DNA from: Phycisphaeraceae bacterium
Lineage (GTDB): Bacteria > Planctomycetota > Phycisphaerae > Phycisphaerales > SM1A02
Reading direction: 5' to 3'
Length of the DNA stretch: 64,000 bases
Assembly (NCBI GenBank): GCA_019636755.1
Contig: JAHBWZ010000002.1
Coordinates: 496,001 to 560,000, forward strand
The stretch's first letter is position 1. Each line of letters opens with the position of its first letter. This document shows positions 1,987-64,000 of this stretch, piece by piece. The position numbers and the translations under genes are program-made. Below the pieces are notes generated by a model that saw only the letters and a program-made list of their open reading frames with translations, had not been told where the DNA came from and did no database searches.

Positions 1987-2136
1987 TTTACGTATGCCCC
2001 GGATGTGCGGGTCCGCCTCATCGACATCAGATGATTGGCATCACGATCGACGGCACCCACTCCGTCCAGGCCTTCGGCCTGTCGAGTCCCGCGTGCTCGT
2101 CAGTGCCAGAGCGCGCACAGACCCCAAGGTGCCCCG

Positions 2137-2175
2137 GATGTCCCGGCGGCGGATGGCGCCGTCCGCCGGGACATC
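2137..2175 (-). terminator. Strong hairpin downstream of the beta-helix gene
   Basis: A 39-base near-perfect palindrome runs from GATGTCCCGGCGG to CCGCCGGGACATC around a GGCGCC centre, starting 53 bases after the stop of the 2229-3817 gene. A matching hairpin sits at the same place after the paralogue at 61275-63053. There is no T-tract, so it is a terminator or 3-prime stabiliser by inference only. Confidence 0.5.
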
Positions 2176-3921: not shown

Positions 3922-5268
3922 TCAGAACACAGGCCCCTCGTACCAGTGCTCGAGAAGGATCATCAGGTCAGCCGCATCCACGGCGCCGTTCTCATTGAGA
4001 TCACCTTCACCCTGGTCGCTTCCCCACATGGCCAGCAGTCGCAGCAGGTCTGCAAGCCCGACGCGGCAATCGCCATCGAGGTCACCCGGCGGTGGTGGGA
4101 CGCGACGGTGGACGTGTCTGGAGCTGGCCAGCAGGCCGTTGTCGCTCCACCCAGGTCGACCTCCGCTCGGCAATCCCGGCGGAACAATCGGCGGATACCC
4201 CGACCAGTCCGCATTCAGCATCTGCGTCACGATGGCCTGGCCCTGAAGCGATTCTGGCGCGACGGCTGTGTACATCGTCTGGAACGGATATGGACCACCG
4301 GTGCTCTGTCCGAACACCATCCCGTCGGATGTCATGGTCCACGACCGAAGACCGGTATACCCGGACAACGGCGCGATCCGCTCATAGACCGCTTCCCCGT
4401 CGCGAAAGCGAGCGCGATAGGACTGGTAAGGCGACACCGCGGGCAGATCCTTGACGCTCAGCAGGAACTCCCCGTCATCGGACCCGCCGATGATCGCGGT
4501 CATGCTCCTGCCTTCGATTCCCGGGTACTCCACCGCGCGCCCGTCATGGGCGACCCACGGATGGCAGATCTGCCACTGCTGCCCCGTCCAGCCGGCGAGC
4601 GTCCGACCATCGCGGGAGATGTACGTGCCCCCGACCGCGGGACCCGAGATCCCGAGCAGGTCTCCGATGTCAGTCAGTACGCCGTCCTGCCAGAGCAGCG
4701 TGCGACGCGAGGAGGAGCCGTCGAGGTCATACGCGAAGTAGACGAGCAACTGGTCCTGGTCGTTGAGCGCCTGCGGATCTGTGAACGCCCCAGGCCCATG
4801 CCCAAGCGGCAACGGCGGCGTGATGATCGTCAGCACGCCGTCCTTCAGGATCCATGCGACATAACCCCAGCCGATCCCCGGGATGGACGCCTCCCCCGCG
4901 ATCGTCCCTCGGTTGTTGATGAAGAGCGCCATGGAATCCGTCGCCCCGGGAATCACGATCTCCTGGAGTGGAGTACCGCTCTGCCAGCGATACGCGCGGG
5001 GCGGCGCCACGGAGCAGTGTGAGTGACCGACAACAACGCCGTCGTTGTTGATACCGCGCGCATAGATCTGCCTCGACCCGAACGAACACGCCGGTCCTGT
5101 GACCGTATCGATCCACTCGAAGCAGTTCCCGGGACCGCCCGCCCGGGCGGCTGACCACCATCCGGGCAGGACGATTCCGCCCACAGCCAGCCCGCACACG
5201 GCCAGCGCGTACCATCGCCGCCACCCGGCATGCCGCCGCCCAACTCCAGACGCGCATTGCTCCACCAT
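3922..5268 (-). CDS. Secreted HAF-repeat protein with two dockerin-like EF-hand loops
   Basis: The open frame extends to 5661, but the start is best placed at ATG 5268. It follows GGGGAGC at proper distance and opens a clear signal peptide (Arg-rich start, hydrophobic YALAVCGLAVGGIVL, cleavage near AARA). The body has HAF-type repeats: RGINNDGVVVGHSH, FINNRGTIAGEA and ALNDQDQLLVYF. The tail holds two calcium loops, GDLDGDCRVGLADLLRLL and GDLNENGAVDAADLMILL, ending in EHWYEGPVF. The product is 448 residues. The paralogue at 59556-61178 shares the architecture but is much diverged in sequence, while promoter and leader are strongly conserved. Binding partners and role are unknown. Confidence 0.82.
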   Translation of the reverse strand: MVEQCASGVGRRHAGWRRWYALAVCGLAVGGIVLPGWWSAARAGGPGNCFEWIDTVTGPACSFGSRQIYARGINNDGVVVGHSHCSVAPPRAYRWQSGTPLQEIVIPGATDSMALFINNRGTIAGEASIPGIGWGYVAWILKDGVLTIITPPLPLGHGPGAFTDPQALNDQDQLLVYFAYDLDGSSSRRTLLWQDGVLTDIGDLLGISGPAVGGTYISRDGRTLAGWTGQQWQICHPWVAHDGRAVEYPGIEGRSMTAIIGGSDDGEFLLSVKDLPAVSPYQSYRARFRDGEAVYERIAPLSGYTGLRSWTMTSDGMVFGQSTGGPYPFQTMYTAVAPESLQGQAIVTQMLNADWSGYPPIVPPGLPSGGRPGWSDNGLLASSRHVHRRVPPPPGDLDGDCRVGLADLLRLLAMWGSDQGEGDLNENGAVDAADLMILLEHWYEGPVF

Positions 5269-5531
5269 CACCACGCTCCCCGGCCCCGTGGGCCGATTCG
5301 GCGTACCCCGGGCCCAATACGACAGGGCCCTCGACAGGGCCCTCGACAGGGCCTCGACAGGGCCTCGACAGGGCCCTCGACCGATCCCGGATGCAGGCCC
5401 GGCCCGCATCCCTTCCTCGATTGTCGTCCGGAGTGGTTCGACCGGACTGTCTCGACCGGAGGGGTCCACCGGACCCCTGCGTTCCCCACCGCCGCGCCCT
5501 GAAGTGACATGGGCGTGATCGGACAGTGGAC
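5269..5531 (-). promoter_or_regulatory. Long conserved 5-prime leader of the HAF gene
   Basis: About 260 bases lie between the promoter and the ATG at 5268. Most of this aligns with the leader of the paralogue at 59329-59555. Shared blocks include AGGGGTCCGGTGGAC, CGAGGAAGGGATGCGGGCCG and TACGCCGAATCGGCCCACGG. Several GGGCCC-centred palindromes could fold. It is conserved better than the coding sequence, so a regulatory RNA role is possible. Confidence 0.6.
5321..5378 (-). repeat. Five tandem 11-12 base units in the leader
   Basis: The unit reads GACAGGGCCCTC on the plus strand, in lengths 12, 12, 11, 11, 12. The paralogous leader near 59490-59503 has a single equivalent unit, so this is a local expansion between otherwise conserved blocks. 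Confidence 0.85.
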
Positions 5532-5559
5532 ACTGTACCACGTCGACCGCGCGTGTCAA
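5532..5559 (-). promoter_or_regulatory. Sigma-70-like promoter of the HAF gene
   Basis: On the minus strand TTGACA (5559-5554) and TACAGT (5537-5532) are separated by 16 bases. The same pair with the same spacing is conserved upstream of the paralogue (59301-59328). Confidence 0.75.
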
Positions 5560-5617
5560 GCAATGATCATGTCCATGAACAGGGCGGTGCACAGACGGTG
5601 AGTCAATCGCCTCACGG

Positions 5618-5905
5618 ATGATCGTCGCGCACGGACCACCATCCCTGCAGAGAGACGTCATGGCAGGTCCGCATCATCGACATCAGATGTTCGACACCAC
5701 GATCGACACCACGCATCACGGGCACGCCTTCAGCCTGCACTGTTCGTCTGCACGCATCCGCGGGTATCGCTGCGCTCCGGACGCTGCGGCTCCGCGCGTC
5801 CAGGTCTTCGGCCTGTCGCGTGCGTGGGCAGCAGTCGCTCGGCCGCGAAGAAGACGGCGGCCGACATCGGCGTGCACGCGTGGACGCTGTGAGAGAGATC
5901 GAGCG
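5618..5905 (-). repeat. Long repeat upstream of the HAF promoter (inverted copy of 58965-59274)
   Basis: Read on the minus strand, this region aligns along nearly its whole length with 58965-59274, including GGCCGCCGTCTTCTTCGCGG, GGCCGAAGACCTGGACGCGC and GGTGCAGGCTGAAGGCGTGCC-like blocks. No coding frame is conserved. The stretch from the HAF upstream region to murJ (5662-6024) holds nothing else that I recognise. Confidence 0.8.
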
Positions 5906-6024
5906 AGCGAGCGCGCACGCGCATGCACGAGTCAGCAATCCTGACAATGCACCTGAGCATGGCGCCATGCACGCCCTCGCCTTCCGGACGCGCGATCATG
6001 CCGGGGATCCGACGCGCCTTCCGG

Positions 6025-21015: not shown

Positions 21016-21186
21016 GGCGGCCGCCCGTTGAGCACCGGCGCTTGACATCGCTCTCGCCGCGACGCTCTTCCCGGCGATCGAACATCATCGCGTGCGGCCG
21101 ACCACGCCCTGACTGGACGGCGCGATCGCAACGGACGGCCAGCCCGCAAGCACCTGTCTCCCGTCCGCCCACCCCAACCGATCCGG

Positions 21187-21192
21187 TACGCT
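21187..21192 (+). promoter_or_regulatory. Minus-10-like element of RHS copy 1
   Basis: TACGCT ends exactly 11 bases before ATG 21204, within a block GATCCGGTACGCTCTCCCGC shared by the RHS copies. No Shine-Dalgarno sequence fits, so a very short or absent leader is likely. Confidence 0.5.
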
Positions 21193-21203
21193 CTCCCGCG
21201 CCC

Positions 21204-23141
21204 ATGCCCCTGCGTCGCGCCATCCACGTGATGATCGTCGCACTGCTGGCGCTCGTCGCGTCAGGCATGCTGAGCACGCCCGCGCATGGCACCCTGGTCC
21301 GCGTGGACTACCGGGCGCCCGTGGTGCGTATGGACCGGGCCGTGTACGGCAATACCGGCGCCGGGACGTTCGGATCGTCCCCGACGTCAGAAGCCACGAT
21401 CTACCCGGGACTCGATCGATTCGGAAGGCCCGTCTCGCATCTCTGGATCCGGGATCGGGGCGGATCGGGGCTCTTCACCACGGCAGAGTCCGTCTATGAC
21501 CGTGACCAGTGGGATGCGTGGAATCGTCTGGTCGCCGTCACGTCCGCCGTGGACCAGGGCGCGCCGGTCGCGCGCTCGCGTTCGGTCTACGACGCGCACC
21601 ATCATCGCATCACGCATGACGCCGACACGACCGGGAATGGCGCGATCGACACGCGCCGGGAGGTCTACTACGACGAGTCCTGGCGTGCGGTCCAGGTTCT
21701 TCTCCGGGCGTATGACACCGGTACGTCGTCGTGGGCGGACCCGCACGAACAGGAAGACCTGTTCTGGGGCGCGCGCGGGCCGAACGACCTTGTGCACCGC
21801 ACCGTTCTGGACATCGACGATCCCGGGGAACCGGTGCGCACGAAGGAGCGGTGGGTCATCACCGACCTCCAGTTCTCCGTCATGGCAGTGGTGGACCAGG
21901 CCGGCGCGATCGTTGAGCGCGTGTCCTACGGGCCATACGGCGACCCGCGGCACCACCCACACGCGGACCTGAACGGCGATGGCGCGGTCACGTTCGCTGA
22001 CTCCCTGCTGCTCCAGGGGAACTGGGGCAACCCGGGCCTGGGCGATCTCAACCAGGACGGCACGGTCGATTTCTCCGATCAGTTGATCCTCACCGGCTCG
22101 TACGCGTCGGCGCTGCCGCGCGGCCTGGGCCTGTCGACAGACGGGAACGTGATCGGGTTCACGGGTCACGTGTTCGACGCAGAGACCGGCCTGCTGCTCG
22201 CGCGCCTGCGCGTGCATGACGCGGTGGTGCTGGGCCGGTGGCTGTCGCGCGACCCGGCAGGCTTCGTGGACGGGATGAACCTGTACGTGTACGTGCGGGG
22301 GAATCCGCTGGTGTGGTGGGATCCGCTGGGGATGTGGAGTCTGAGCGGGTGGATTCAGGAAGCGTCGTACTTCATCCGCGGCATGGGAATGGTGGTGTCG
22401 GATGCCATCCAGGATCGCGTCTCAGCGATATGCGATGATCCGGCAGGGTTCCTTGAGTCATTTACACTGCGCGCTCAGGGTGAAGCGATCGGGAAAGACC
22501 TGATCGCGCGGTGGGAGCGGGCTCGGAAGATCACTGAGCAGGATGCGGCCCTGTTCATTGCTCCGGATACGACATGGAGCTTTGTGCTGAACCTCGGCGC
22601 AGAACTCACGCCCGCGGGCAGAGCTGCTGAAGGGCTCGCTGGCTTTGATCGCGACAGCCAGGACGTCATCGACGATTCGTTGGTGCGTGCGGGGATGGTA
22701 TCGTCGGCTGTCGGCGAAAGTCTTTCGATGGTAGCCGGCGGTAGCGGCGTGGCTGGACAGGCGAGCCGGATGACTAGAAAGTCAGTGCCCACGCCGCATG
22801 GAACGGCGATTCAGGCCAACACACCCGCAGCACATGCGGCTCTTCGAGATGTTCGAAGTGGAGAGACAGTTTACCGTCAAGGATCATTCGGAGTTCAGAA
22901 TACTGCAGATGCGCAGTTCTGGTCTCTTCAGAATCCGGCATCGACAATGGACTTTGCCAGCCAAATGGGGATGTTCGGCGGAGCATCGCGCCCGGATTGG
23001 ATCATGGGAGGTCAAGTATCTCGCAGATCCGCCGTGGTTACGCGCCCTGCGCCCAGAATCGGTTCAAATGTCGGAGGGAATATGGAAGCGGTTGTTCCGC
23101 CAGGTGGAGTCCAGATTCTCTGGTTTCACATGCCCGATTAG
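21204..23141 (+). CDS. Secreted RHS-core polymorphic toxin with EF-hand loops, full-length (cassette 1)
   Basis: The 645-residue protein has a signal peptide (MPLRRAIHVMIVALLALVAS, cleaved near AHG) and an RHS-repeat region (about 30-250) ending in the typical DQAGAIVERVSYGPYGDPR. Two EF-hand/dockerin-like loops follow, ADLNGDGAVTFADSLLLQ and GDLNQDGTVDFSDQLIL (about 254-300). The RHS-associated core is at about 318-378 (DAETGLLLARLRVHDAVVLG; RDPAGFVDGMNLYVYVRGNP). After WWDPLGMW the sequence is cassette-specific and less GC-rich. The final 100 residues (VYRQGSFG, QFWSLQNP, GGNMEAVVPP, WFHMPD) look like a compact toxin. A YR...FWS...E order would suit an ADP-ribosyltransferase-like fold, but this is a guess. 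The 23153 gene follows as candidate immunity gene. Confidence 0.85.
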   Translation: MPLRRAIHVMIVALLALVASGMLSTPAHGTLVRVDYRAPVVRMDRAVYGNTGAGTFGSSPTSEATIYPGLDRFGRPVSHLWIRDRGGSGLFTTAESVYDRDQWDAWNRLVAVTSAVDQGAPVARSRSVYDAHHHRITHDADTTGNGAIDTRREVYYDESWRAVQVLLRAYDTGTSSWADPHEQEDLFWGARGPNDLVHRTVLDIDDPGEPVRTKERWVITDLQFSVMAVVDQAGAIVERVSYGPYGDPRHHPHADLNGDGAVTFADSLLLQGNWGNPGLGDLNQDGTVDFSDQLILTGSYASALPRGLGLSTDGNVIGFTGHVFDAETGLLLARLRVHDAVVLGRWLSRDPAGFVDGMNLYVYVRGNPLVWWDPLGMWSLSGWIQEASYFIRGMGMVVSDAIQDRVSAICDDPAGFLESFTLRAQGEAIGKDLIARWERARKITEQDAALFIAPDTTWSFVLNLGAELTPAGRAAEGLAGFDRDSQDVIDDSLVRAGMVSSAVGESLSMVAGGSGVAGQASRMTRKSVPTPHGTAIQANTPAAHAALRDVRSGETVYRQGSFGVQNTADAQFWSLQNPASTMDFASQMGMFGGASRPDWIMGGQVSRRSAVVTRPAPRIGSNVGGNMEAVVPPGGVQILWFHMPD

Positions 23142-23152
23142 AGCATAGATGG

Positions 23153-23425
23153 ATGAATCCGTATACACTCAGAAACAATGACGATCTCTTAGACTATCTG
23201 GTGCGGACAGCCAGAGTCCTTGTTGACAGTGGCCATGGCGCATTGGCTCAGAGAGTGGAGCGCGCCGCACTCTTTGCGAATGGATCGCCGTCCGAGTTCT
23301 TGCATGAAGCGCAGAGTGCGCTTAGGAGTCTGGGTATTGCCAAGCCGAGTGGTTTGGATCTCTCTGAACTGCGATCAGTGGTCGATCAGATTGAAGTGGC
23401 CTTTCGCAGTATCGGAGGAGCATGA
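23153..23425 (+). CDS. Candidate immunity protein of cassette 1
   Basis: A 90-residue acidic helical protein begins at ATG 23153, 12 bases after the toxin stop (MNPYTLRNNDDLLDYLVRTA at the N-terminus). It is less GC-rich than the chromosome. Position directly behind the variable tip is the basis for calling it immunity. I do not recognise the family. Confidence 0.65.
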   Translation: MNPYTLRNNDDLLDYLVRTARVLVDSGHGALAQRVERAALFANGSPSEFLHEAQSALRSLGIAKPSGLDLSELRSVVDQIEVAFRSIGGA

Positions 23426-23637
23426 AACTCACCTATCGACTGAAAGAGCAACATCACGTCGATAGACTTGCGCCGCTGTCCGCGCGCCCGGGGACCCCTC
23501 CGTGTCAATATGACCGAGGCCCCCCGATTGTGTCCCTCACCCACGTCGACGGCGACGAGATGCTCTCCCAGGACGACGACCCTGACCCGTCAGGAGCCTG
23601 CGTGTGAGGGACAGCTGTCAACCAATCCCAACCCTTA
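23426..23637 (+). other. Remnant sequence between cassette 1 and IS630
   Basis: A short frame starts at ATG 23422, overlapping the immunity stop as ATGA, and reads MKLTYRLKEQHHVDRLAPLS before turning into unconvincing sequence (61 codons). Part of it (about 23441-23495, AGAGCAACATCACGTC onward) recurs at about 24815-24866, just after the IS. The stretch is probably a broken cassette end. Confidence 0.4.
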
Positions 23638-23737
23638 TACGGCTCCCAGATGACCCTCGCGCGCCGTTCGGCGCCTGTTAGGGTTGCGCGATTGCGCGCG
23701 GTCGTGCATGATGTGGACCCTATCGGCAGGAGGCCAT

Positions 23738-24238
23738 ATGAACGTGCACGAACGGAGTCGCGGTGATCGTCAGAAGCTCGGTCGAAGTATCAGGGCCGAG
23801 CGGGACGCCATGCAGCGCGACCGCCTGCGCGCGGTCGCACTCGCGATCGACGGTCGCGAGACGCTCGACATTGCCGAGACGCTCGGCCGAAGCCGGGCCT
23901 TCGTCCAGAGGTGGGCGTACGCGTATCGCGACGGCGGCCTCAAGGCCATTCGCGGCGGGACCGCCCCGGGACGCGCGCGATTCCTCACGCCCGAGCAGGA
24001 GGCGCGGTTCATCTCGCGCGTTCGATGCGGCGCGACGCCCGAGGACGGCGTGTCTGCGCTGCGAGGGCCGCAGCTGCGCCACATCCTCGAGAAGGAGTTC
24101 GGAGTCGCTCACTCGCTGAACGCCGTGTACAACATCCTCGCACGCAACGGCTTCTCGTGTCAGCAGCCGCGGCCACGGCATCCGAAGCAGGATCCGGCCG
24201 ACGTCAGGCGGTTCAAGCGAAGCGCCCCCCTTTTCTGA
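23738..24238 (+). CDS. IS630 transposase, N-terminal part (orfA)
   Basis: This 166-residue helix-turn-helix part begins at ATG 23738 behind GGCAGGAGGCC, a strong ribosome site. It includes ALAIDGRETLDIAETLGRSR (DNA-binding helices) and YNILARNGFSCQQPRPR. The frame ends at a TGA right after the run CCCCCCTTTT (24225-24235). The catalytic half continues in the minus-1 frame, so slippage on this run would yield the full transposase. Confidence 0.85.
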   Translation: MNVHERSRGDRQKLGRSIRAERDAMQRDRLRAVALAIDGRETLDIAETLGRSRAFVQRWAYAYRDGGLKAIRGGTAPGRARFLTPEQEARFISRVRCGATPEDGVSALRGPQLRHILEKEFGVAHSLNAVYNILARNGFSCQQPRPRHPKQDPADVRRFKRSAPLF

Positions 24239-24243
24239 AGCGC

Positions 24244-24789
24244 ATGCAGGATGCCCGGCCGCGGACGCGTCTCCGCGTCCTCTTCCAGGACGAAGCGCGA
24301 TTCGGCCAGCAGGGCACCCTCACCACGGTGTGGGCGCCCGCGGGATCACGCCCGACCGTGATCAGGCAGAACGGACGCCGCTCCATCTGGGTATTCGCGG
24401 CGGTGGAGCCAGCGAGCGGATGGTCGATGGCGATGGTCGCCCGCCACGCGAACACGGAGTCGATGCAGACGTTCCTCGACCGCACCGCGTCGCACATCAG
24501 GCCGCGCGAGCACGCGGTGATGATCCTGGACGGAGCAGGATGGCATTGCTCGAAGGAACTCCGCTGGCCGAAACGGATCACGCCCCTGTTCCTGCCGCCG
24601 TACTCGCCGGAGCTGAATCCCGTCGAACGGCTCTGGCTGTGGTTCCGCAACAACGACTGGAGCAACCGCGTATTCGAGGATGAGGAAGCCTTGATCGCAG
24701 CCGCACGCGAGAGCCATCGCCGCCTGACGCGAGCGAGGGTGCGCTCCGTCTGCCGAGCTTCATGGATCACGCCTGAGGAGCATCTGTGA
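24244..24789 (+). CDS. IS630 transposase, catalytic DDE part (orfB)
   Basis: This frame is open well upstream of 24244 and joins orfA in the minus-1 direction at the C6T4 run. It carries the DDE triad: RVLFQDEARFGQQG (first Asp), AVMILDGAGWHCSKELRW (second Asp) and LPPYSPELNPVERLWLW (Glu). ATG 24244 is the first in-frame start after the slip site, but production as a fusion with orfA is more likely. The stop lies 6 bases before the right inverted repeat ends. Confidence 0.87.
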   Translation: MQDARPRTRLRVLFQDEARFGQQGTLTTVWAPAGSRPTVIRQNGRRSIWVFAAVEPASGWSMAMVARHANTESMQTFLDRTASHIRPREHAVMILDGAGWHCSKELRWPKRITPLFLPPYSPELNPVERLWLWFRNNDWSNRVFEDEEALIAAARESHRRLTRARVRSVCRASWITPEEHL

Positions 24790-24912
24790 GCCGTATTACA
24801 AGGTTCCTGAACGATAGAGCAACATCCCGTCTGTGAATCTGCGCCGCTGCCTGCTCGCCCGGGGACTCCATCGCCGCCCCAGTCCCCCGTTCGCCCACCC
24901 TGTCCGATCCGG

Positions 24913-24918
24913 TACGCT
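24913..24918 (+). promoter_or_regulatory. Minus-10-like element of RHS copy 2
   Basis: TACGCT lies 11 bases before ATG 24930, in the same GATCCGGTACGCTCTCCCGC block as copy 1. Confidence 0.5.
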
Positions 24919-24929
24919 CTCCCGCGCCC

Positions 24930-26228
24930 ATGCCCCTGCGCCGCGCCATCCACGTGATGATCGTCGCACTGCTGGCGCTCGTCGCGTCAGGCATGCTGAC
25001 CACGCCCGCGCATGGCACCCTGGTCCGCGGGCCGCATGACCACCATCACACCGCCAGCGCGGTCACGTTCGCTGACTCCCTGCTGCTCCAGGGGAACTGG
25101 GGCCACCCGGGCCTGGGCGATCTCAACCAGGACGGCACGGTCGATTTCTCGGATCAGCTGATCCTCTCCGGCTCGTACGCGTCGGCGCTGCCGCGCGGCC
25201 TTGGCCTGTCGACGGACGGGAACGTGATCGGGTTCACAGGTCACGTGTTCGACGCGGAGACCGGCCTGCTGCTCGCGCGCCTGCGCGTGCATGACGCGGT
25301 GGTGCTGGGCCGGTGGCTCTCGCGCGACCCGGCGGGCTTCGTGGACGGGATGAACCTGTACGTGTACGTGCGGGGGAATCCGCTGGTGTGGTGGGATCCG
25401 CTGGGGGTGTGGAGTCTGAGCGGATGGTGGCGTGACCTGCGTGAGGGCGCCGCCGCGCTCATCAGCGGTGACGCCGGGGTCAGCGCATGGCAGGCGAACG
25501 ACCAGGCGATGCTGGAGCGTCACCGTGCACTGGCGCAATCGGATGACCCGGTCGTGCGTGCGGCCTCGGAACGGATGGCCGGAAGCCTTGAGCGGGGAAT
25601 CGATGAGACCTCCAGAGCGGTCACGGACTTCCACCAGGCGCGGGCCGAGGCTGCCGTGGCGATTGCGACGGCCCCGGTGGGCGGAACCGCCGCGCTGGCG
25701 ATCGGAGTGGCGCATGGGTGCGTGAACGCGGCGATCGATGTGTCGCAGGGGCAGTATGCGAACGCGGTGATGGGCGTGGTGCCGGGGGCAGGCGGCGCGG
25801 CAGTGAGCCGGATCATGAGCCGGGCGGGTCCCGGTGCACTGGGCGCGTTGGCTCGACCGGTTGCGCGGCAGGCGGATGAGGTGGCGGGTGCGGGAAGAGG
25901 GGTACAGCCGTTTCAAGTCGGGCGGTATGGCGACCTCCAAGCTGCGTCGCGAGTCGGTGATGATCTGGCGCTGCATCACGCTGGTCAGCAGCACCCGATG
26001 CGGCAGATCATCCCCGGGTACAATCCTCATACGGCTCCAGTGATGTCGCTCCCGACTGCACAGCATCGCCGGATACCAAATCTCTCAGGACCCTATGGAG
26101 GCACTGCGCGTGACCTTCTTGCTCGGGACATTCGTAACATGCGTGCTTACACCGATGCTCCAAACAGCGGGCTCCGAGAGCTGATTGAACTCAACAGGCA
26201 GATGTATCCAGGTGCATTCGCAAAATGA
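24930..26228 (+). CDS. Secreted short RHS-core toxin, HNH-like tip (cassette 2)
   Basis: The 432-residue protein has the same signal peptide as cassette 1, but after GTLVR it jumps to GPHDHHHTASAVTFADS. The RHS repeats and the calcium ligands of the first EF-hand loop are missing. The second loop (GDLNQDGTVDFSDQLIL) and the RHS core up to WWDPLGVW are kept nearly unchanged. A pre-tip helical/Ala-rich region follows. The last about 90 residues (LALHHAGQQHPMRQIIPGYN, then PTAQHRRIPNLSGPYGGTA and LNRQMYPG) have the His/Asn pattern of LHH/HNH-type nuclease toxins. Its stop overlaps the 26225 gene (ATGA). Confidence 0.82.
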   Translation: MPLRRAIHVMIVALLALVASGMLTTPAHGTLVRGPHDHHHTASAVTFADSLLLQGNWGHPGLGDLNQDGTVDFSDQLILSGSYASALPRGLGLSTDGNVIGFTGHVFDAETGLLLARLRVHDAVVLGRWLSRDPAGFVDGMNLYVYVRGNPLVWWDPLGVWSLSGWWRDLREGAAALISGDAGVSAWQANDQAMLERHRALAQSDDPVVRAASERMAGSLERGIDETSRAVTDFHQARAEAAVAIATAPVGGTAALAIGVAHGCVNAAIDVSQGQYANAVMGVVPGAGGAAVSRIMSRAGPGALGALARPVARQADEVAGAGRGVQPFQVGRYGDLQAASRVGDDLALHHAGQQHPMRQIIPGYNPHTAPVMSLPTAQHRRIPNLSGPYGGTARDLLARDIRNMRAYTDAPNSGLRELIELNRQMYPGAFAK

Positions 26229-26578
26229 ACTCTCACGACTTTGTCCGTGCTATCACGACCGTTGTTTACAGCGCAGCCGTCAAGGGTACGCTGGATGTCA
26301 TTGAGAGTCCTCCCGGGCGGCGTCCCGATCCCCGATTGGTGGAGCTCAGCCAGTGGTTCCACAGTTTGAGTTCGGAAGGCCGAATGGCCATTGTCGAGAT
26401 CGTCGAGTTGGCGGCGAATCAGGCAACGTACAACTTTCTCTTGGTTCTTGACGGACTCCTGACTCTAGAGCCTATCGGGGCAAAAGGAAACCTCGAGCTG
26501 TTTCATGTGCAGGGAGGCGCTCGCAATCAAGTGAACAGCATGGACGGTGAGCAGCTGAGTACTCTGTTTAAACTATGA
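26225..26578 (+). CDS. Candidate immunity protein of cassette 2
   Basis: A 117-residue protein (MNSHDFVRAITTVVYSAAVK at the start; FLLVLDGLLTLEP near the end) begins in an ATGA overlap with the toxin stop, implying coupled translation. It is soluble and less GC-rich than the RHS core. The immunity role is inferred from position. Confidence 0.72.
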   Translation: MNSHDFVRAITTVVYSAAVKGTLDVIESPPGRRPDPRLVELSQWFHSLSSEGRMAIVEIVELAANQATYNFLLVLDGLLTLEPIGAKGNLELFHVQGGARNQVNSMDGEQLSTLFKL

Positions 26579-26723
26579 AGATCGCTCGCAACGGTGACAC
26601 TGTCCGTGGACAGAGGAATGACAAACGACCAGCCGGTGGAGTTCATTCACACAGTTCTGCACTCCTCTGGAGCGCAGTTGCCGCGCCCAGTCCACAGTCA
26701 ACCAGCGATGGTCCCCAATCCTG

Positions 26724-26729
26724 TATGCT
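26724..26729 (+). promoter_or_regulatory. Minus-10-like element of RHS copy 3
   Basis: TATGCT, closest of the four to the sigma-70 consensus, again ends exactly 11 bases before the ATG (26741). The surrounding block is partly diverged, so hexamer and spacing are what has been kept. Confidence 0.55.
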
Positions 26730-26740
26730 TTCCAGCGCAC

Positions 26741-28039
26741 ATGCCCATCACGCGCACCATTCGCCTGATGGTCCTCCTGCTGCTGGCGCTCGTCGCGTCA
26801 GGCATGACGAGCTCGCCTGCGCATGGCACCCAGGTCCGCGGGCCGCATGACCACCATCAGACCACCGGCGCGGTCACGTTCGCTGACTCCCTGCTGCTCC
26901 AGGGGAACTGGGGCAACCCGGGCCTGGGCGATCTCAACCAGGACGGCACGGTCGACTTCTCGGATCAGTTGATCCTCACCGGGGCGTACGCGTCCGCGCT
27001 GCCGCGCGGCCTGGGCCTGTCGACGGACGGGAACGTGATCGGGTTCACGGGTCACGTGTTCGACGCGGAGACCGGCCTGCTGCTCGCGCGCCTGCGCGTG
27101 CATGACGCGGTGGTGCCTGGCCGGTGGCTGTCGCGCGACCCGGCGGGGTTCGTGGACGGGATGAACCTGTACGTGTACGTGCGGGGGAATCCGCTGGTGT
27201 GGTGGGATCCGCTGGGGATGTGGATCTTCAGGTGGCTGGGTCTGGCAACAGACCAGAGCGCAGCCGGTGCAACCACGACCGGGTGGGATGTTGCCGACGC
27301 CTATGTGACCGGATTCGTGAAGGGAATCGGCGAGGCCGCCGCCAATACGAAGGCTGGCATCGAAGGCGGCCTGAAGACCGTCATCATCGGCGGCGGCGTG
27401 ACGCTGGGTCTCGTTGACGAGCGGCACCTCGACGAGGTCCCGATCGCGGCGGCCATGATGGATCGGGTCATGGAGGGGAACGAAGGTTCGCTGCTGGGCG
27501 ACTTCGCCCGCATCTCGACGGTCGAGCCGTTGGCGGCGATGCGTGACGGCATTCTGTCGGGCGACCCGGAGGCCGCGGGCGCTGCGCTGCGAGGCTTCGG
27601 TCTGTTCATCCTGACTCGGCAGTGCGTGAGAGGGCGCACGGGTCGGATGGTGGATGATGGGGTGGATGCCGCAAGGGGGGTAAGGTACGGGCCTCTGAAC
27701 AGGGGACCGCTGCCGGATGGGGTCGCGAACACATTCCGCGGTGGGTCATACACCGGCACGACGGTCTCGGAGCCGACGATGCTCTACAGAGTGCACGGTG
27801 GCACAGCCGGAGAGGTTGGGCAGTTCTGGACCCGGACACCACCAGCCGGCCCACTGCAATCACAGATCGATCTTGCCCTCAATCCTGCTTGGGGAAATAC
27901 CGCGACGCAGGTCACGACGATTCGGGTGCCTGCAGGAACTACGATCTTCGAAGGGTTTGCGGCCGGTCAGGGCGGGCTCGTCGGAGGTGGAAGCCAAGTC
28001 GTCATCCCCAGCGTCAACCCCGCGTGGATAGTCCGATGA
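26741..28039 (+). CDS. Secreted short RHS-core toxin (cassette 3)
   Basis: The 432-residue protein has a related signal peptide (MPITRTIRLMVLLLLALVAS), the shortened join GTQVRGPHDHHQTTGAVTF, one intact EF-hand loop, the RHS core to WWDPLGMW and then a new tip. The terminal domain (TMLYRVHGGTAGEVGQFWTR, DLALNPAWGNTATQVTTIRV, then FEGFAAGQGGLVGGGSQVV) shares with cassette 1 the order YR...QFW(S/T)...Glu. An ADP-ribosyltransferase-like toxin is possible but unproven. The stop overlaps the next gene by ATGA. The open frame extends to 26594; ATG 26741 starts the signal peptide. Confidence 0.82.
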   Translation: MPITRTIRLMVLLLLALVASGMTSSPAHGTQVRGPHDHHQTTGAVTFADSLLLQGNWGNPGLGDLNQDGTVDFSDQLILTGAYASALPRGLGLSTDGNVIGFTGHVFDAETGLLLARLRVHDAVVPGRWLSRDPAGFVDGMNLYVYVRGNPLVWWDPLGMWIFRWLGLATDQSAAGATTTGWDVADAYVTGFVKGIGEAAANTKAGIEGGLKTVIIGGGVTLGLVDERHLDEVPIAAAMMDRVMEGNEGSLLGDFARISTVEPLAAMRDGILSGDPEAAGAALRGFGLFILTRQCVRGRTGRMVDDGVDAARGVRYGPLNRGPLPDGVANTFRGGSYTGTTVSEPTMLYRVHGGTAGEVGQFWTRTPPAGPLQSQIDLALNPAWGNTATQVTTIRVPAGTTIFEGFAAGQGGLVGGGSQVVIPSVNPAWIVR

Positions 28040-28335
28040 CGTCGCGAAAGAGCTGGATGACGCCGCGGGAGATCAGGTCACCTGGTGAGCTTGCCGAAGT
28101 GATCCGCAGCGTTACCGAGGCGGTTCGTGCCGGTGACTTGCGCGCTGTCACTCCAAACAATCCGCCTCTCGGAGCAGCGATTGATATCCGGCAGATCGCT
28201 CCTGGAGGCCCGTGGCCAGACTACCTGGAGCTTCACTTCGCAGATGCACAGACAGGCGAGCGCTTCAGGCTGGTCGCCGAGACCTATCACGGAGCTGGTG
28301 GTCTTTGGGAGCTAGTGGACGAGCCACCGACATGA
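28036..28335 (+). CDS. Candidate immunity protein of cassette 3
   Basis: A 99-residue soluble protein (MTSRKSWMTPREIRSPGELA; later LELHFADAQTGERFRLVAET) begins in an ATGA overlap with the cassette 3 toxin. Its own stop overlaps the next toxin start as ATGA. Toxin, immunity and next toxin thus form one tightly coupled run. Confidence 0.72.
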   Translation: MTSRKSWMTPREIRSPGELAEVIRSVTEAVRAGDLRAVTPNNPPLGAAIDIRQIAPGGPWPDYLELHFADAQTGERFRLVAETYHGAGGLWELVDEPPT

Positions 28336-28895
28336 GAGGGACCGGATACGTGTCCAGCCGCGACCCTCTCCTCGCGATCCTGTGCGTCCTCGCGAGCCTC
28401 CTTGTCCCGGCGATCGCGTCGGCGAACTCGGCCGCGGGCGCCGAAACTCTCGCCTGGGCTTTCGACCTCCAGGATCAGGTCGGCGTCAAGGTCGAGCGCT
28501 CGCTAACTTTCGCACTGCACCAGGGATGGGCGCCGACGTACGATCAACTCGCGTCCGATTCCCTCCTTGCCGCAAGGGGGGGAGCGCACAGCGCTGCGAA
28601 CGCCGTACGGTTGAATCGCCAGCTTGCGGCGCAGGAGATCGCGGGAGGCCATGCGTTCGGGAAGCACGCTGGCGAGTTCGCGGATCTCGGGATCCAGACT
28701 CGCCAGCAGTTTGCGAGCCACATCGAGAACATCATGAACTACCCGTCGGCCACGCGGGCACTCAGCAATGGACGCACGGCCTTCTGGGACAATGCAACGG
28801 GGACGGTGGTCATCAGGAACCCGTCAGCCGTGGATGGCGGAACGGCGTTCCGCCCGACGACGGGTATGTCGTACTTCACCGACACTCTCAAGTAA
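28332..28895 (+). CDS. Stand-alone secreted toxin candidate without RHS core (cassette 4)
   Basis: This 187-residue protein starts at ATG 28332 in an ATGA overlap. It has its own signal peptide (LLAILCVLASLLVPAIASA) and no RHS or EF-hand part. The C-terminal domain reads GGHAFGKHAGEFADLGIQTR, QFASHIENIMNYPSATRAL, NGRTAFWDNATGTVVIRNP and DGGTAFRPTTGMSYF. The HAF.KH start and the TAFW...VVI...GGTAF strands recall small RNase toxins of the BECR type. The assignment is from memory of such tips. The frame opens at 28212 inside the previous gene. Confidence 0.72.
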   Translation: MRGTGYVSSRDPLLAILCVLASLLVPAIASANSAAGAETLAWAFDLQDQVGVKVERSLTFALHQGWAPTYDQLASDSLLAARGGAHSAANAVRLNRQLAAQEIAGGHAFGKHAGEFADLGIQTRQQFASHIENIMNYPSATRALSNGRTAFWDNATGTVVIRNPSAVDGGTAFRPTTGMSYFTDTLK

Positions 28896-28906
28896 GGACG
28901 CCTGCC

Positions 28907-29242
28907 ATGTCCCTGCTGCACTGCACTGAGGAGGATCGCAGGATCATCGCCGACTCTCTGAAGGCTGCGGTGGAAGGACCGTTCTTCCCTGACTGGGAGT
29001 TCTCGACGCTCTTCGGGTTACAACGGGCCGAAGTAGCCGAGATTGCTCGTGCTTGGCCAAAGGTCGAAGAGTCCGACGATCGAGTCGATCTTGCCGTAAA
29101 CAACGCCCTTGGCAACCTTGCCGGATACCCTCACGGCCACGAGCAGGAATGGGAGCGGTTCCTCTCTGTGCCGCCAGCGCGACTGTTGGACACGCTGAAA
29201 CGCTGGCGACTTCCACATGGCGCGAGTCCGACGAGACCCTGA
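28907..29242 (+). CDS. Candidate immunity protein of the stand-alone toxin
   Basis: A 111-residue protein starts at ATG 28907, 11 bases after the toxin stop, behind AAGG. Features include ADSLKAAVEGPFFPDWEFST, LFGLQRAEVAEIARAWP and NNALGNLAGYPHGHEQEWE. I recall similar small proteins next to bacterial toxin tips but cannot name a family. The role is inferred from position. Confidence 0.7.
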   Translation: MSLLHCTEEDRRIIADSLKAAVEGPFFPDWEFSTLFGLQRAEVAEIARAWPKVEESDDRVDLAVNNALGNLAGYPHGHEQEWERFLSVPPARLLDTLKRWRLPHGASPTRP

Positions 29243-29434
29243 AGCACGCACGCGCGTGCCATTCCAGATGCCGCCTCGCCGATCGCTGACCCGGCGGGCA
29301 CCTGGCTGATGACGGCGAGGATGATCAGGTCGGGCCGCTCCTGGTGGTAACGCTCGGAGCTGACGATGACACGAGCCGTTGTCGGCGATGCAGCTGTGTT
29401 GGCCAGGCAGTTATGGATGTGTCGTAGTTTGGCT

Positions 29435-29659: not shown

Positions 29660-29741
29660 GTTTCGGCTTTCTGGACAAGTGGTGAGTGTTGTTCCGGCAA
29701 CCAGTCGTTCCTGATTGCGGGAGCGATCAGGAACGCACCTG

Positions 29742-29786
29742 CGCAAGGGATGTTCAAGGGGGGCGCCAGCCCCCATTCGCGTGCGT
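29742..29786 (+). repeat. Family B repeat, plus orientation
   Basis: GCGCAAGGGATGTTCAAGGG followed by the GGGGGCGCCAGCCCCC hairpin and ATTCGCGTGCGTG. It faces the copy at 29941-30015, forming an inverted pair about 150 bases apart. Confidence 0.75.
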
Positions 29787-30193: not shown

Positions 30194-30204
30194 TTCCCGC
30201 GCCC

Positions 30205-58964: not shown

Positions 58965-59274
58965 AGGCGAGGGCGTGCACGCCGATGTCGGCCGCCGTCT
59001 TCTTCGCGGTCGAGCGACTGCTGCCCACGCGCGCGACTGGCCGAAGACCTGGACGCGCGGAGCCGCAGCGTCCTGGAGCGCAGCGACACCCGCGGATGCG
59101 TGACGAAGGACGGTGCAGGCTGAAGGCGTGCCAGTGATGCGTGTCGTCGATCGTGGTGTCGATCATCGGATATCGATGACGCGGACCTGCCAGGACGACT
59201 CCCTACAGGGATGGTGGTTCGTGCGCGACGGTCGATCCGTGAGGCTCCTTGCTCACCGTCTGTGCACCGCCGTG
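58965..59274 (+). repeat. Long repeat upstream of the right HAF gene
   Basis: It is an inverted copy of 5618-5905 with roughly nine of ten bases matching by eye. Its last 40 bases (59235-59274) recur exactly at 63961-64000, the window end. Confidence 0.85.
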
Positions 59275-59300
59275 TTCATGGACATGACCACTGCTTGTGC

Positions 59301-59328
59301 TTGACAGGGTCGGGTCACGTGGTACAGT
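59301..59328 (+). promoter_or_regulatory. Sigma-70-like promoter of the right HAF gene
   Basis: TTGACA (59301-59306) and TACAGT (59323-59328) with a 16-base spacer, matching hexamers and spacing of the promoter at 5532-5559. Confidence 0.78.
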
Positions 59329-59555
59329 GCACACCGTCCGATCACCCCCACATCAATTCAGGGCGCGGTGGTCGGAGAGTCAGGGGTCCGGTGGACGGCT
59401 CCGGTCGAACCACTCCGGACGACATTCGAGGAAGGGATGCGGGCCGGGCCCGCGTCCGGGATCGGGTAAGGGCCCAGTTGTGAGATGACTCGAGGGCCCT
59501 GTCGTATTGGGCCCGGGGTACGCCGAATCGGCCCACGGGGCCGGGGAGCGTGGCA
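59329..59555 (+). promoter_or_regulatory. Conserved 5-prime leader of the right HAF gene
   Basis: About 227 bases that align with 5269-5531 except for the five-unit expansion there. It ends in CGGGGCCGGGGAGCGTGGCA before ATG, giving a GGGGAG ribosome site. Confidence 0.62.
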
Positions 59556-61178
59556 ATGGGACGGACTGCGCGGGGTGACACGGGCCGGATCGCGGGCGGC
59601 GTGCAGCGTCGGCGCGCGCCTGGTGGGGTGGAGGTGCAGGTGGTGTCGGGGGCGCCGGCTGCGGCTTGGGGGGCGGCAGATGCAAGGGACGTGTCGAGTG
59701 CGCGCCGGGCGGACCGCGCGCAGAGCAGCGCCGACGGGGTCGGCCGACCGCGGCGCAGTCCTGGGCGTGGGCGCGCCGCGCTGCTTCGGGCAGCGCTCTT
59801 TGCAGGCGCGGTTGCGCTCTTCCTCTCAGGTGTCATCGGTCCGGCGCTGCCCGCCGTGGCCGGTGATGGGGCGAAGGACTCCGGGGACTCCGGGGGCGCC
59901 GGGGGGTCCGGGGGCGCCGGCGCGGGTGGACTGGTCGGGCCGTGCTCCATGGTGCTCGAACCGGTGGAACTGCCGTATCCGCCGTGCTTTCGCGTGGACA
60001 GGACGATCACGGTGACGTGTCCCGGAGGAAGTCCCCCCTTCTACTCGGCGCTGGATATCAACGATCTCGGGGACATCTGCGGCTACCGCTTGTGTGGCGC
60101 CGGTGTACGCAAGGCGGTGGTCTGGCCGCGTGAAGGCGGGATGATCCAGCCGCCGTTCCCGGCGGGTGCGGGTACGAGTGAGACAAGGGCGATCAACAAT
60201 GGTCGGTGGGCGACGGGCAACGTCTACCTCCCCGATGGTGCAGGTGGCGGGGCACGCCACATGTGGCTGTGGAACATCGTGACGAACGAACTGCTGCTGG
60301 TGCCGCCGCCGGTGATTGCGGGTGAGCAAGGGACGTTCGTACAGCCGGAGGACCTGAACGACGCGATGGACGTGGTGGGGACGCTCTCCGGCCCGACCTC
60401 GAACGACCACGCCAACTACGGCCCCTATGCGTTCCGCTGGCGCGGCGGGGAGTTCGAGATCTTCCCGTTCGTGGATCCGCTGGGGGTGGAGCGGAGCGAG
60501 GGGTACAGGACCAACGCTCAGGGGGACATTCTTGGGACGGCTGGCTTCCGCATCGGGGCGCTCCCCAACGAACTGGCGCTGATTTTCTCTGATGCGCAGG
60601 TCACACTCGCTCCGCCGGGCAACTGGACCGCCATGGTGCCCGAAGCGTTCAATGACAGCGGCGTGTTCGCGGCGTATACAAGCGTGTCTGGAAACGGCGG
60701 CGCATGGATCGGTCTGCTCGGGACCAGGGACGGCTACCTGTGCGAACTTCCGGGGATCGAGCAGCCGCAGGGGACACGCCGGATCCATCCCTATGCAATC
60801 AACAACGCCGGCGATGTGGTCGGATACCAGCAGTACAACACGGGCGGCGGACAGTTCGCCATGCTCTGGCGCAACGGCGTGGCTCATCGCCTGGTACGCA
60901 TGGTGATCGCTGCGCCGTGGCCGGCCACCTACAACGGGGGCACTCCCACGGCGATCAGCGAGAACGGGCAGATCGTGATCCCCTCGGGCTCGCCGATCTA
61001 CCACCTGGTCCCGGCGCCGCCTCCGCCGGGTGATCTGAACCATGACTGCCGTGTCGGCTTCCAGGATCTTCTCCTCATGCTGAGCCGATGGGGTACGGCG
61101 GGCGAAGGCGATCTCAATGGTGACGGCGTGATCGACACGGCGGACCTGTGGATGCTGTTCGATCACTGGAATCCGTGA
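59556..61178 (+). CDS. Secreted HAF-repeat protein with two dockerin-like EF-hand loops
   Basis: The 540-residue protein starts at ATG 59556 (GTG 59550 also possible) and is the paralogue of the 3922-5268 gene. An N-terminal extension precedes the hydrophobic signal segment (ALFAGAVALFLSGVIGPALP). After a Gly/Ser-rich stretch come HAF-type repeats: LDINDLGDICGYRL, RAINNGRWATGNVY, DLNDAMDVVGTLSG and YAINNAGDVVGYQQYN. The tail has GDLNHDCRVGFQDLLLMLS and GDLNGDGVIDTADLWMLF. The signal segment lies unusually deep (about residue 80). The function is unknown. Confidence 0.82.
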   Translation: MGRTARGDTGRIAGGVQRRRAPGGVEVQVVSGAPAAAWGAADARDVSSARRADRAQSSADGVGRPRRSPGRGRAALLRAALFAGAVALFLSGVIGPALPAVAGDGAKDSGDSGGAGGSGGAGAGGLVGPCSMVLEPVELPYPPCFRVDRTITVTCPGGSPPFYSALDINDLGDICGYRLCGAGVRKAVVWPREGGMIQPPFPAGAGTSETRAINNGRWATGNVYLPDGAGGGARHMWLWNIVTNELLLVPPPVIAGEQGTFVQPEDLNDAMDVVGTLSGPTSNDHANYGPYAFRWRGGEFEIFPFVDPLGVERSEGYRTNAQGDILGTAGFRIGALPNELALIFSDAQVTLAPPGNWTAMVPEAFNDSGVFAAYTSVSGNGGAWIGLLGTRDGYLCELPGIEQPQGTRRIHPYAINNAGDVVGYQQYNTGGGQFAMLWRNGVAHRLVRMVIAAPWPATYNGGTPTAISENGQIVIPSGSPIYHLVPAPPPPGDLNHDCRVGFQDLLLMLSRWGTAGEGDLNGDGVIDTADLWMLFDHWNP

Positions 61179-61274: not shown

Positions 61275-63053
61275 ATGGTGTGCATGCAACGCATGCGCGG
61301 GCGCGGTCTCTGCGCCCTGGCGGCCGCGTGGATCGCGGTGACGGTCCCGGTCCGTGGTGACATCCTGCTGGTCCATCACGACCCGCCGGCGACGGGGTTC
61401 TGGTCGACGGCGGTGACGCTTGACACGGCGCTGGCAGCAGCCCAGCCCGGCGACCAGATCTGGATCGCCGGTGGGACGTACGTGCCGCAGTACACGGCGC
61501 CCACCGGGAACCCGCCGCCGACATCGCCGGCGCGGCAGAGGACGTACTTCGTCAAGGTGGACGGCACACTGGAGATCGCCGGCAACTTCGCGGGGACGGA
61601 GACCCAGATCGGCCAGCGCGACCACATCAACCCCGCGCACGAGACGATCCTGAGCGGGCTGATCGGGTCCAATCCGAACGACTGGAACGATCGCGTGTTC
61701 CACGTGATCACGGCGGTTCCGGATCCCTTCACCGAGATTCAGCTCCGCCTCGACGCGCTGACGGTGCAGCACGGCTGGGCCACGGGTGAGACCGGTGGGG
61801 AGGTCGAGGATCCGATCGGACAGGAGGAGTCCAGGGGCCTGGGCGGAGGCCTCTATGGGCGCGTCGGAGAACTCGTTCTGACACTGTGCACGTTCCGTGA
61901 GAACCGGGCCGGGATTGCAAGCTGTGCCGCGGAGTACCAGGGAGGGACCGTCGCTGGATCGGGCGGTGCCGTGGCGCTGCTCGGTAGCAAGGCGGGACTC
62001 GAGGGCCCGGAGGAGATCGAGCCGGAGTCCTATGACATCGAGATCGTCGCGTGCACGTTCGATGAGAACCGTGCGGAAGCCGGCTCCGATGCCCTCCTGA
62101 ATCCCGGCACCCATGGTGGCGCGCTGCATGTCGATGCCCTCGGATTCGCGATGCGGATGACCAACAGCGTCTTCCGCGCCAACTCGGTGTACGGGCTCTC
62201 GTGTCAGGCGACGGTGACCGCGTCCGGTGGCGCGATTTCGTTCGGCGTGGGCGGCGGCTGGCTGACGATCGTGAACTCGACGTTCGTGGACAACGTGGCG
62301 GAGACCTCCGGTGCGGTCCCGGGTACCGCGATCGGAGCCGCCATCGTGCGCTGTCCGGCGACGCGGATCCGCAACACGATTCTGTGGGGGAACACGGCGA
62401 ATGAGGTGCTGAGTCACGTGAGTCGTCCGCCACAGTCCGCCGCCTGCTGGGACGACGGCACAGTCACGTACGCGCACTGCAACGTGGAGCTGACGTCCGG
62501 AACCCAGTCCGGCACCGGCAACATCAACGCCGACCCGCTGTTCGTGGACCGGGAGGCGGGCGATCTCCGGCTGACGGAGGAGTCACCGTGCATCGACGCG
62601 GGCTGGCACGAGCACCTGGTCAAGGACCACTATGACATCAACCGCGACGGCAACCTCCTGGAGGATGCGCCGGATCGCGACCTGGCGAATCGCACATTCG
62701 GCTGTCCGCCCGACATGGGTGCATTCGAGTTCATCCCGGAGGAGATGCCCTTCGGCGATCTGGACGGCAACGGCCGCGTGGACTTCCAGGATCTTCTGCT
62801 GGTCCTGTCCTGCTGGTCGAACCCGGAAGATCCGCCGCTGGATCCGTCGGATCCGTGCGCACCGTCGGACCTGAGTGAGAACGGGTCTGTCGACTTCTGG
62901 GATGTGCTGCTGATCCTGGCGTGGTGGACCAGTTGCGATGGCGAACAGGTCACGCAGGGTTCGGTCTCTGAGTGCATCGACAAGTTCGGATTCACGAACC
63001 CGGCCGCGCTCGCGGCGTGCATCGAAGCGATGATCATCAACGGCACGCCATAG
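61275..63053 (+). CDS. Secreted beta-helix (choice-of-anchor Q-like) protein with dockerin-like tail
   Basis: The 592-residue protein has an excellent ribosome site (GGAGGAGG) before ATG 61275 and a signal peptide (GLCALAAAWIAVTVPVRG). The beta-helix body has ALAAAQPGDQIWIAGGTYVP, EIAGNFAGTETQIGQRDHIN and the typical MTNSVFRANSVYG and AIVRCPATRIRNTILWGNTA. The EF-hand tail GDLDGNGRVDFQDLLLVLS and SDLSENGSVDFWDVLLILA is followed by the family-specific end SVSECIDKFGFTNPAALAAC then IEAMIINGTP. It is the intact paralogue of the frameshifted gene at 2229-3817 and follows the HAF gene by 96 bases. Confidence 0.85.
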   Translation: MVCMQRMRGRGLCALAAAWIAVTVPVRGDILLVHHDPPATGFWSTAVTLDTALAAAQPGDQIWIAGGTYVPQYTAPTGNPPPTSPARQRTYFVKVDGTLEIAGNFAGTETQIGQRDHINPAHETILSGLIGSNPNDWNDRVFHVITAVPDPFTEIQLRLDALTVQHGWATGETGGEVEDPIGQEESRGLGGGLYGRVGELVLTLCTFRENRAGIASCAAEYQGGTVAGSGGAVALLGSKAGLEGPEEIEPESYDIEIVACTFDENRAEAGSDALLNPGTHGGALHVDALGFAMRMTNSVFRANSVYGLSCQATVTASGGAISFGVGGGWLTIVNSTFVDNVAETSGAVPGTAIGAAIVRCPATRIRNTILWGNTANEVLSHVSRPPQSAACWDDGTVTYAHCNVELTSGTQSGTGNINADPLFVDREAGDLRLTEESPCIDAGWHEHLVKDHYDINRDGNLLEDAPDRDLANRTFGCPPDMGAFEFIPEEMPFGDLDGNGRVDFQDLLLVLSCWSNPEDPPLDPSDPCAPSDLSENGSVDFWDVLLILAWWTSCDGEQVTQGSVSECIDKFGFTNPAALAACIEAMIINGTP

Positions 63054-63136: not shown

Positions 63137-63163
63137 ATCCCGGGCGCCTCTGGGGTCTGTGCG

Positions 63164-63345
63164 CGCTGTGGAATCTGCTGGCACGCGTGACTCGACAGGC
63201 CGAAGGCCCTGATCGCGCAGAGCCGCGGCGTCCTGGAGCGAAGCGACACCCCCGGAAGCGTGATGAAGGATGGTGCAGGCTGAAGGCCTGCCCGCGGTGC
63301 GTGCCGTCGATCGTGGTGTCGCCCATCGTGGCATCGCCGTCCTCG
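63164..63345 (+). repeat. Partial copy of the upstream repeat family
   Basis: Blocks such as CTGGAGCGAAGCGACACCC, GATGGTGCAGGCTGAAGGC and GCCGTCGATCGTGGTGTCG match parts of 59060-59165 and, inverted, 5680-5800; weaker similarity exists with 2035-2110. No coding frame is kept. Confidence 0.65.
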
Positions 63346-63470
63346 GCGATGGTGCCGAGGCCGTCCCCGGCCGCGCCGCTGCGCGCGAGCCATGCCGAGG
63401 CACGCAGATGAGGATCGCCAGATCGACGACACGCATGCTCCAGTTCATCGTGCAGGAGCCCGACGACCGC

Positions 63471-63513
63471 GAAGGGGGTTCAAGGGGGGCGACAGCCCCC
63501 ATTGGCGTGCGCG
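63471..63513 (+). repeat. Family B dispersed palindromic repeat
   Basis: GAAGGGGGTTCAAGGGGGGC, hairpin GGGGGCGACAGCCCCC and tail ATTGGCGTGCGC are almost identical to 1944-1986, the copy behind the paralogous module at the other end of the window. Confidence 0.8.
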
Positions 63514-63736
63514 ATCAGATCGCGCAGGCATGGACGTCGTCGTGAGATGAGGAGCATCGGTCGAGCGTTCTCTCTCACGCTCGTCCGCTGGATCACATGT
63601 CCAGAGGATGCACGTCGCTGATCGGAGTCAGTTGGTCACCTTCCTTGTCGACACGGTCTGAAGGCGCACGCCGATGGGAGATGGCGCCACGGTTGAACAC
63701 ACCGTTGCGATGTCGGCGCGAATGCCCGCTCCAGTT

Positions 63737-63895
63737 CTCTCGCCAAGGCGCGAAGGTCGCGAAGATGATGAGGTGATCGTGTTCAGGAGGCGCATGGCTC
63801 TGGATGCCGTCGAGCATGATGTGAACGGTGCATGAAGCGGATGAGCGCACTTGTCCTGGCGCTCTTCGCGTCTTCGCGAGAGCATCCGGATGGAG
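63737..63895 (+). repeat. CTTCGCG-type dispersed repeat pair
   Basis: TTCTCTCGCCAAGGCGCGAA (about 63736) and the inverted-like GCTCTTCGCGTCTTCGCGAG (about 63861) frame about 100 bases without a gene. The motif resembles a repeat seen in many environmental bacterial genomes. The remaining sequence from 63054 to 63960 holds no supported gene. Confidence 0.5.
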
Positions 63896-63960
63896 CCTGG
63901 CGTTTCGGCGGACCTGCCATGACGGCGCTTTGTCGGGACGGCCGTTCATGTGCGAAGATC

Positions 63961-64000
63961 ATCCGTGAGGCTCCTTGCTCACCGTCTGTGCACCGCCGTG
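63961..64000 (+). repeat. Start of a further copy of the HAF upstream repeat (cut by window edge)
   Basis: Forty bases identical to 59235-59274, which in the other copy precede the TTGACA promoter by 26 bases. A third HAF-type gene is therefore expected just beyond the window. Confidence 0.75.

Follow-up and report, generated by a model that had tools for sequence, protein, structure and literature searches.

The window analysed here is a stretch of 64,000 nucleotides from a Phycisphaeraceae bacterium (C12:496001-560000 of a draft genome of 4.11 Mb in 20 contigs), and it carries a gene for a HAF-repeat protein near either end, the two facing in opposite directions (Table 1). Its dockerin, HAF and choice-of-anchor proteins point to a planctomycete-like lineage. 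By score, both proteins belong to the TIGR02913 (HAF repeat) family, which describes the proteins and not the leader discussed below. For dockerin type I (PF00404), the two proteins score 18.1 and 17.6 bits, below the gathering cut-off of 22.9, and we therefore call them dockerin-like only. The predicted structure of the copy E protein has a mean pLDDT of 61 and structural matches with TM (query) below 0.4, and it is only suggestive of a propeller-like mature domain. The second genes of such units (61275-63053; L031, L034, L041) end in a common tail, CIEAMIINGTP, which matched no family, and an ORF near the left window end has the similar ending ACIATIE. Elsewhere in the window, pieces of Rhs core lie at 21042-31035, where a 300-nt stretch occurs four times at 96-97% (21982, 25057, 26868, 30332) and no fewer than three ORFs match the Rhs core and then continue into different sequence, an arrangement resembling an Rhs gene and its displaced tips.

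Table 1. Features of the HAF units in window coordinates, and the seven full copies in the genome (contig coordinates where a contig is named)
Feature	Position	Strand	Remarks
Repeat fragments, downstream end of unit G	2007..2137	-	
Copy G HAF-repeat protein gene, 448 aa	3922..5268	-	TIGR02913 33.2 bits, cut-off 22.65; signal peptide, C-terminal dockerin-like, type I backbone
Copy G leader, end of -10 hexamer to base before start codon	5269..5531	-	263 nt
Copy G 40-nt invariant leader core	5276..5315	-	GGCCC-ACG-GGGCC hairpin and GGGGAG ribosome-binding site
12-nt tandem repeat TCGAGGGCCCTG in copy G leader	5320..5381	-	
Copy G -10 hexamer TACAGT	5532..5537	-	TG-extended
Copy G -35 hexamer TTGACA	5554..5559	-	
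Copy G upstream repeat	5560..5914	-	parts recur at other intergenic sites of the genome without the leader
Copy E upstream repeat	58965..59300	+	
Copy E -35 hexamer TTGACA	59301..59306	+	
Copy E -10 hexamer TACAGT	59323..59328	+	
Copy E leader	59329..59555	+	227 nt
Copy E 40-nt invariant leader core	59509..59548	+	
Copy E codons 1-90	59556..59825	+	within homogenised block, which ends about at the signal peptide; E-F silent changes 0/80
Copy E HAF-repeat protein gene, 540 aa	59556..61178	+	TIGR02913 24.4 bits, cut-off 22.65; type III backbone
Unit E second gene, secreted beta-helix-like protein	61275..63053	+	matches to choice-of-anchor Q and dockerin weak, under the cut-off
Pieces of copy F upstream repeat	63140..64000	+	F promoter, leader and gene just past the window (C12:560 kb)
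Full copy A	C12:18.6k		type II backbone
Full copy B	C12:136k		type I backbone
Full copy C	C14:23k		type II backbone
Full copy D	C4:24.6k		type III backbone
Full copy E	window 59k		type III backbone
Full copy F	C12:560k		type II backbone; tandem behind E
Full copy G	window 5k		type I backbone

The region upstream of the copy G gene (5269-5905) and that upstream of copy E (58965-59555) are inverted copies of each other, with 83.1% identity over 623 aligned columns. The initial annotation had described long, nearly identical blocks. This is accurate for the blocks, which form six inverted arms at 80-97% (5265-5353/59471-59559, 88%; 5368-5446/59400-59478, 91%; 5438-5562/59298-59422, 80%; 5557-5619/59235-59297, 87%; 5620-5778/59075-59233, 88%; 5779-5879/58973-59073, 97%), but not for the whole, because the arms join into the one match of 83.1%. 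The promoter it had pointed out, TTGACA-16-TACAGT, is present upstream of both genes with the -10 hexamer extended by TG, and for copy G one match was found against 0.1 expected in shuffles. The leader, which it had put at about 230 bases, was also recovered, measured from the -10 end to the ATG (lengths in Table 1). In both copies it is GC-rich and its 3′ end reads GGGGAG followed by the start codon; a 40-nt block just 5′ of the start codon is identical in G and E, where none would be expected. GGGCCC palindromes are indeed found in the leader and belong mostly to the 12-nt tandem repeat, which has 5.3 copies in the copy G leader; across the genome its copy number is about one in E and F, three in A and D, and five in C and G.

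The 4.1-Mb genome holds seven full copies of this region (A to G), five of them outside the window, as well as fragments. Each full copy lies upstream of a HAF gene, that of B being decayed. The leader core, taken as 32 nt, occurs without mismatch at exactly seven genome sites, all at these genes, and the hexamers of TTGACA-16-TACAGT are unchanged in all seven full copies. Four contigs of the draft genome end within the repeat. As a separate observation on the repeats of this genome, a REP-like hairpin, GGGGGCTGAAGCGCCCCC, and its partner, GGGGGCTGAGGCCCCCCC, are dispersed over it, with 109 matches at up to two mismatches against 3 in a reversed control. They often stand in tandem units of ~410 bp, with the two forms oppositely oriented, and are found at C1:247125-248345, C2:120038-120862, C19:3923-4338 and other sites, as well as near window positions 58925-58960. 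A search for a RAYT transposase that might drive them gave a single weak Y1_Tnp match, in C17.

The proteins encoded behind the seven fronts have three different backbones. Units of the same backbone are alike over long parts (G-B, 92% over 3.1 kb; A-C, 86% over 3 kb; D-E, 88% over 2.1 kb, which covers most of the HAF part). Across backbones, the bodies are ~40% different between types II and III and not alignable as DNA between type I and the others, whereas the front from promoter to start codon is still about 70-100% alike in 100-column windows. It follows that the initial annotation had compared two copies of different backbone, and its remark that the G and E proteins are alike only in patches agrees with their identity of 27% over 437 columns. 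Copy B resembles G in degenerate form: its coding part has 36 indels and has lost the start codon. Dozens of short indels relative to G, mostly deletions, are seen along this stretch (L033:3000-6200, C12:133-136 kb), and B either has decayed or is a repeat that was poorly polished in the assembly.

Whether the leader is conserved more than the protein, which was the central claim of the initial annotation, depends on the pair that is considered. It is so for G and E, but not for G and B, with 89.4% in the leader and 94.3% in the coding part. A coding identity no lower than that of the leader had been held to speak against the claim; several pairs show it, namely G-B and, in its front part, E-F. 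In the latter pair, identity is 99.1% in the leader, 99.6% in codons 1-90 and 60.0% in the rest; at silent sites, 0 of 80 are changed in codons 1-90, followed by a difference of 0.25 in codons 91-140 and of 0.54-0.59, that is, saturation, from codon 141 onwards. Since the silent sites are frozen for 90 codons and then released at once, this pattern is not what selection acting on an RNA leader would produce. Silent differences are also uneven in D-E (0.00-0.09 at codons 91-200 and 401-545, 0.37-0.39 between) and patchy in C-F (0.07-0.08 versus 0.52). Sites in the leader group A, E and F against C and D (with B and G joining C and D for most of the leader), sites in the coding part group D and E against A, C and F, and the incompatible sites are clustered. 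The PHI test gave P = 0.0005 for positions -120 to 680 of A, C, D, E and F, and P = 0.009 for the leader only of all seven copies. A recent conversion limited to this part had been named as one explanation, and it is supported by the E-F front, whose silent sites are as identical as the leader before saturation sets in, by the first of these PHI values and by the homogenisation within the genomes of relatives described below.

In the types II and III, the beginning of the reading frame itself has unusual properties. In several pairs, nonsynonymous differences in codons 1-90 equal silent ones, and codons 1-76 are disordered in the predicted model of E. The alignment with homologues from relatives sets in only around position 111, their signal peptide starting shortly before, and codons 1-72 of copy E are without counterpart in them. 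Given the equal rates, the disorder and the later start of the relatives with its signal peptide, the first 72 codons of types II and III may belong to an untranslated leader or form a free extension.

The relatives were represented by one genome per species, with no second genome of the window's own genus among those listed; for comparing pairs within and between genomes, the genome of the window was excluded, and genes were removed if their upstream region coincides with the end of a preceding HAF gene. Upstream regions were similar in 16 of 37 pairs within a genome versus 4 of 428 between genomes, and among pairs whose coding sequences are not alike, in 7 of 18 versus 1 of 329. Permutation of the within/between labels gave P <= 5e-5, values that are only a guide because the pairs are not independent, with few genomes supplying most of them. 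Between-genome counterparts whose coding sequences match strongly (scores of 267-940) had upstream scores at background, one of them slightly above. A seeming reshuffling of leader and coding part between two relatives (G065 vs G036) was dropped, as it came from a comparison with faulty upstream filtering.

One relative (G091) has four HAF genes that are 80-88% alike over 160-340 nt upstream, while their bodies are unrelated or patchy. Three of the four have a promoter-like TTGACT-16-CACACT, most have an AAGGAGG site, and about nine codons are shared. In this genome and in a second one (G012), genes with a common upstream block fall into different protein clades, which include other genera, and AU tests rejected trees that hold the genes with shared upstream regions together (0.0002 in G091, 2.5e-7 in G012). 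Such likeness of upstream regions within a genome, across protein clades, is the signature of concerted evolution. The pattern thus recurs in other genera of the family, each with leaders of its own. Concerning gene arrangement, HAF genes in relatives often form head-to-tail pairs with small gaps (L129, L130, L137, L144, L149), and the second gene of such pairs is without a leader of its own.

We thus consider it probable that promoter, leader and, in most copies, also the N-terminus evolve in concert by gene conversion or recombination while the protein bodies stay different, which would be an established process acting in a new family. The fronts are common to three protein backbones, with a sharp break at the start codon or a little beyond it, and they are homogenised within each genome and different between genomes. 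Such a front comprises an intergenic repeat, a sigma-70-type promoter with extended -10, the leader with its ribosome-binding site and, in most copies, the N-terminal end of the protein as far as the signal peptide. Homologous recombination, be it gene conversion or unequal crossing over, would keep copying it among paralogues, with the repeats on either side of the units supplying the homology; either the front would be copied onto a different body, or a body would be exchanged behind the front. The propeller-like mature domains would stay or become different through older divergence together with segment swaps. This reading is drawn from mosaic sequences, homogenised fronts and conflicting trees rather than from recombination events observed directly. 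As a side effect, all copies would have the same promoter and are likely expressed together, given that the hexamers are unchanged in all seven, and a shared regulator is possible since all copies keep the promoter.

For single copies, mis-joining of the assembly within repeats is possible, as the genome is a draft and contigs end inside the repeat. However, reading frames are intact through the joints, and the pattern is repeated in other genomes.

The initial annotation had also proposed a regulatory RNA leader under selection. In this case, a cis-acting RNA or a hairpin masking the ribosome-binding site would be held by purifying selection while the proteins drift. It would fit with the 40-nt stretch that is invariant in all seven copies and has a hairpin beside the ribosome-binding site, and with a second hairpin, GGATGCGGGC-CGG-GCCYGCRTCC, whose pairing is kept via G-U changes in six of the seven. 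However, the leaders fold barely better than shuffled sequences (z-scores of -1.48 and -1.26), and covariation, which had been suggested as a check with further copies in the genome, was absent among the seven copies, with two-sided (compensatory) change in 1 of 75 pairs and a positive term (+1.72). Rfam recognised a tRNA alone in the window and gave no credible match across the repeat region 5260-5920. BLAST of the leader against 200 relatives returned short matches alone (27-49 nt, E above 1e-5), and the exact core was found neither in 84,980 other genomes nor in viral contigs. The equally conserved silent sites of the adjoining E-F codons and the G-B leader, which is no better conserved than the coding part, weigh against it too, as does the fact that the broken copy B retains the core. 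We therefore regard this explanation as unlikely, though the 40-nt core may be under some selection of its own.

Whole units may also have been duplicated recently, followed by fast protein divergence under relaxed or diversifying selection and by no later exchange. The likeness of G-B and A-C over entire units and of D-E over most of the HAF part speaks for such duplications. A common descent of type I (G, a long branch) with types II/III is compatible with the protein tree (AU test, 0.58), and from this genome alone, fast protein divergence after duplication is possible for G. But silent divergence changes in sharp steps, rising from 0 to ~0.55 within one pair and returning to almost 0 in others, the leader and coding phylogenies conflict, and the leader-sharing genes of G091 and G012 sit in different protein clades, which include other genera. 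As the only process, plain duplication is refuted by the mosaic joints, and we rate this account as very unlikely overall. We hold it most improbable that a separate mobile promoter cassette, or else a small non-autonomous element, inserts upstream of HAF genes: the block is multi-copy, has pieces at other intergenic sites and is surrounded by REP-like hairpins, but constant ends were not found across copies, the upstream end varying (query 411-657) and the downstream end lying at the start codon or ~270 nt into the coding part, and the full leader occurs at HAF genes only.

Several families of surface-exposed proteins in bacteria (Borrelia vlsE/vmp, Neisseria pilE/opa, Campylobacter fetus sap) combine a conserved 5′ part with a mosaic variable body. 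Such antigenic-variation families mostly use one expression site with silent cassettes, or phase switches. By analogy, the conserved front and mosaic body of the HAF genes may be likened to them. Unlike systems with an expression site, every full HAF copy has its own TTGACA-16-TACAGT, and none of the seven is promoterless.

Concerted evolution is recognised by paralogues within a genome that are more alike than their counterparts between genomes, and by homogeneous stretches (PMC2720389). The HAF family shows this greater likeness within genomes, the homogeneous stretches, the sharp tract ends and the homogenised silent sites, but differs in that homogenisation falls mainly on promoter, leader and N-terminus, with the mature coding parts far apart. 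In Mycobacterium tuberculosis, gene conversion has been described within the coding part of one duplicated pair, PE_PGRS17/18 (PMC1762029). Like the HAF genes, this is a bacterial GC-rich multigene family in which converted segments appear as blocks of linked differences; the HAF family, however, has seven dispersed copies, is affected mainly in the upstream region and encodes different proteins.

Conserved upstream sequence beside diverged proteins is easily misread as regulatory RNA. In the HAF family, silent sites, a degenerate copy and the relatives indicate that leader conservation is mostly a footprint of recombination. It is conceivable, though we hold it to be rather doubtful, that HAF surface proteins of this planctomycete-like lineage make up a variable-surface system of free-living bacteria, in which recombination would keep a front of promoter, leader and signal sequence interchangeable and new propeller bodies would be shuffled behind it, and which would have arisen in several genera independently. 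A little-studied family of surface proteins that appears to recombine within genomes in several genera may be a candidate system of surface variation.
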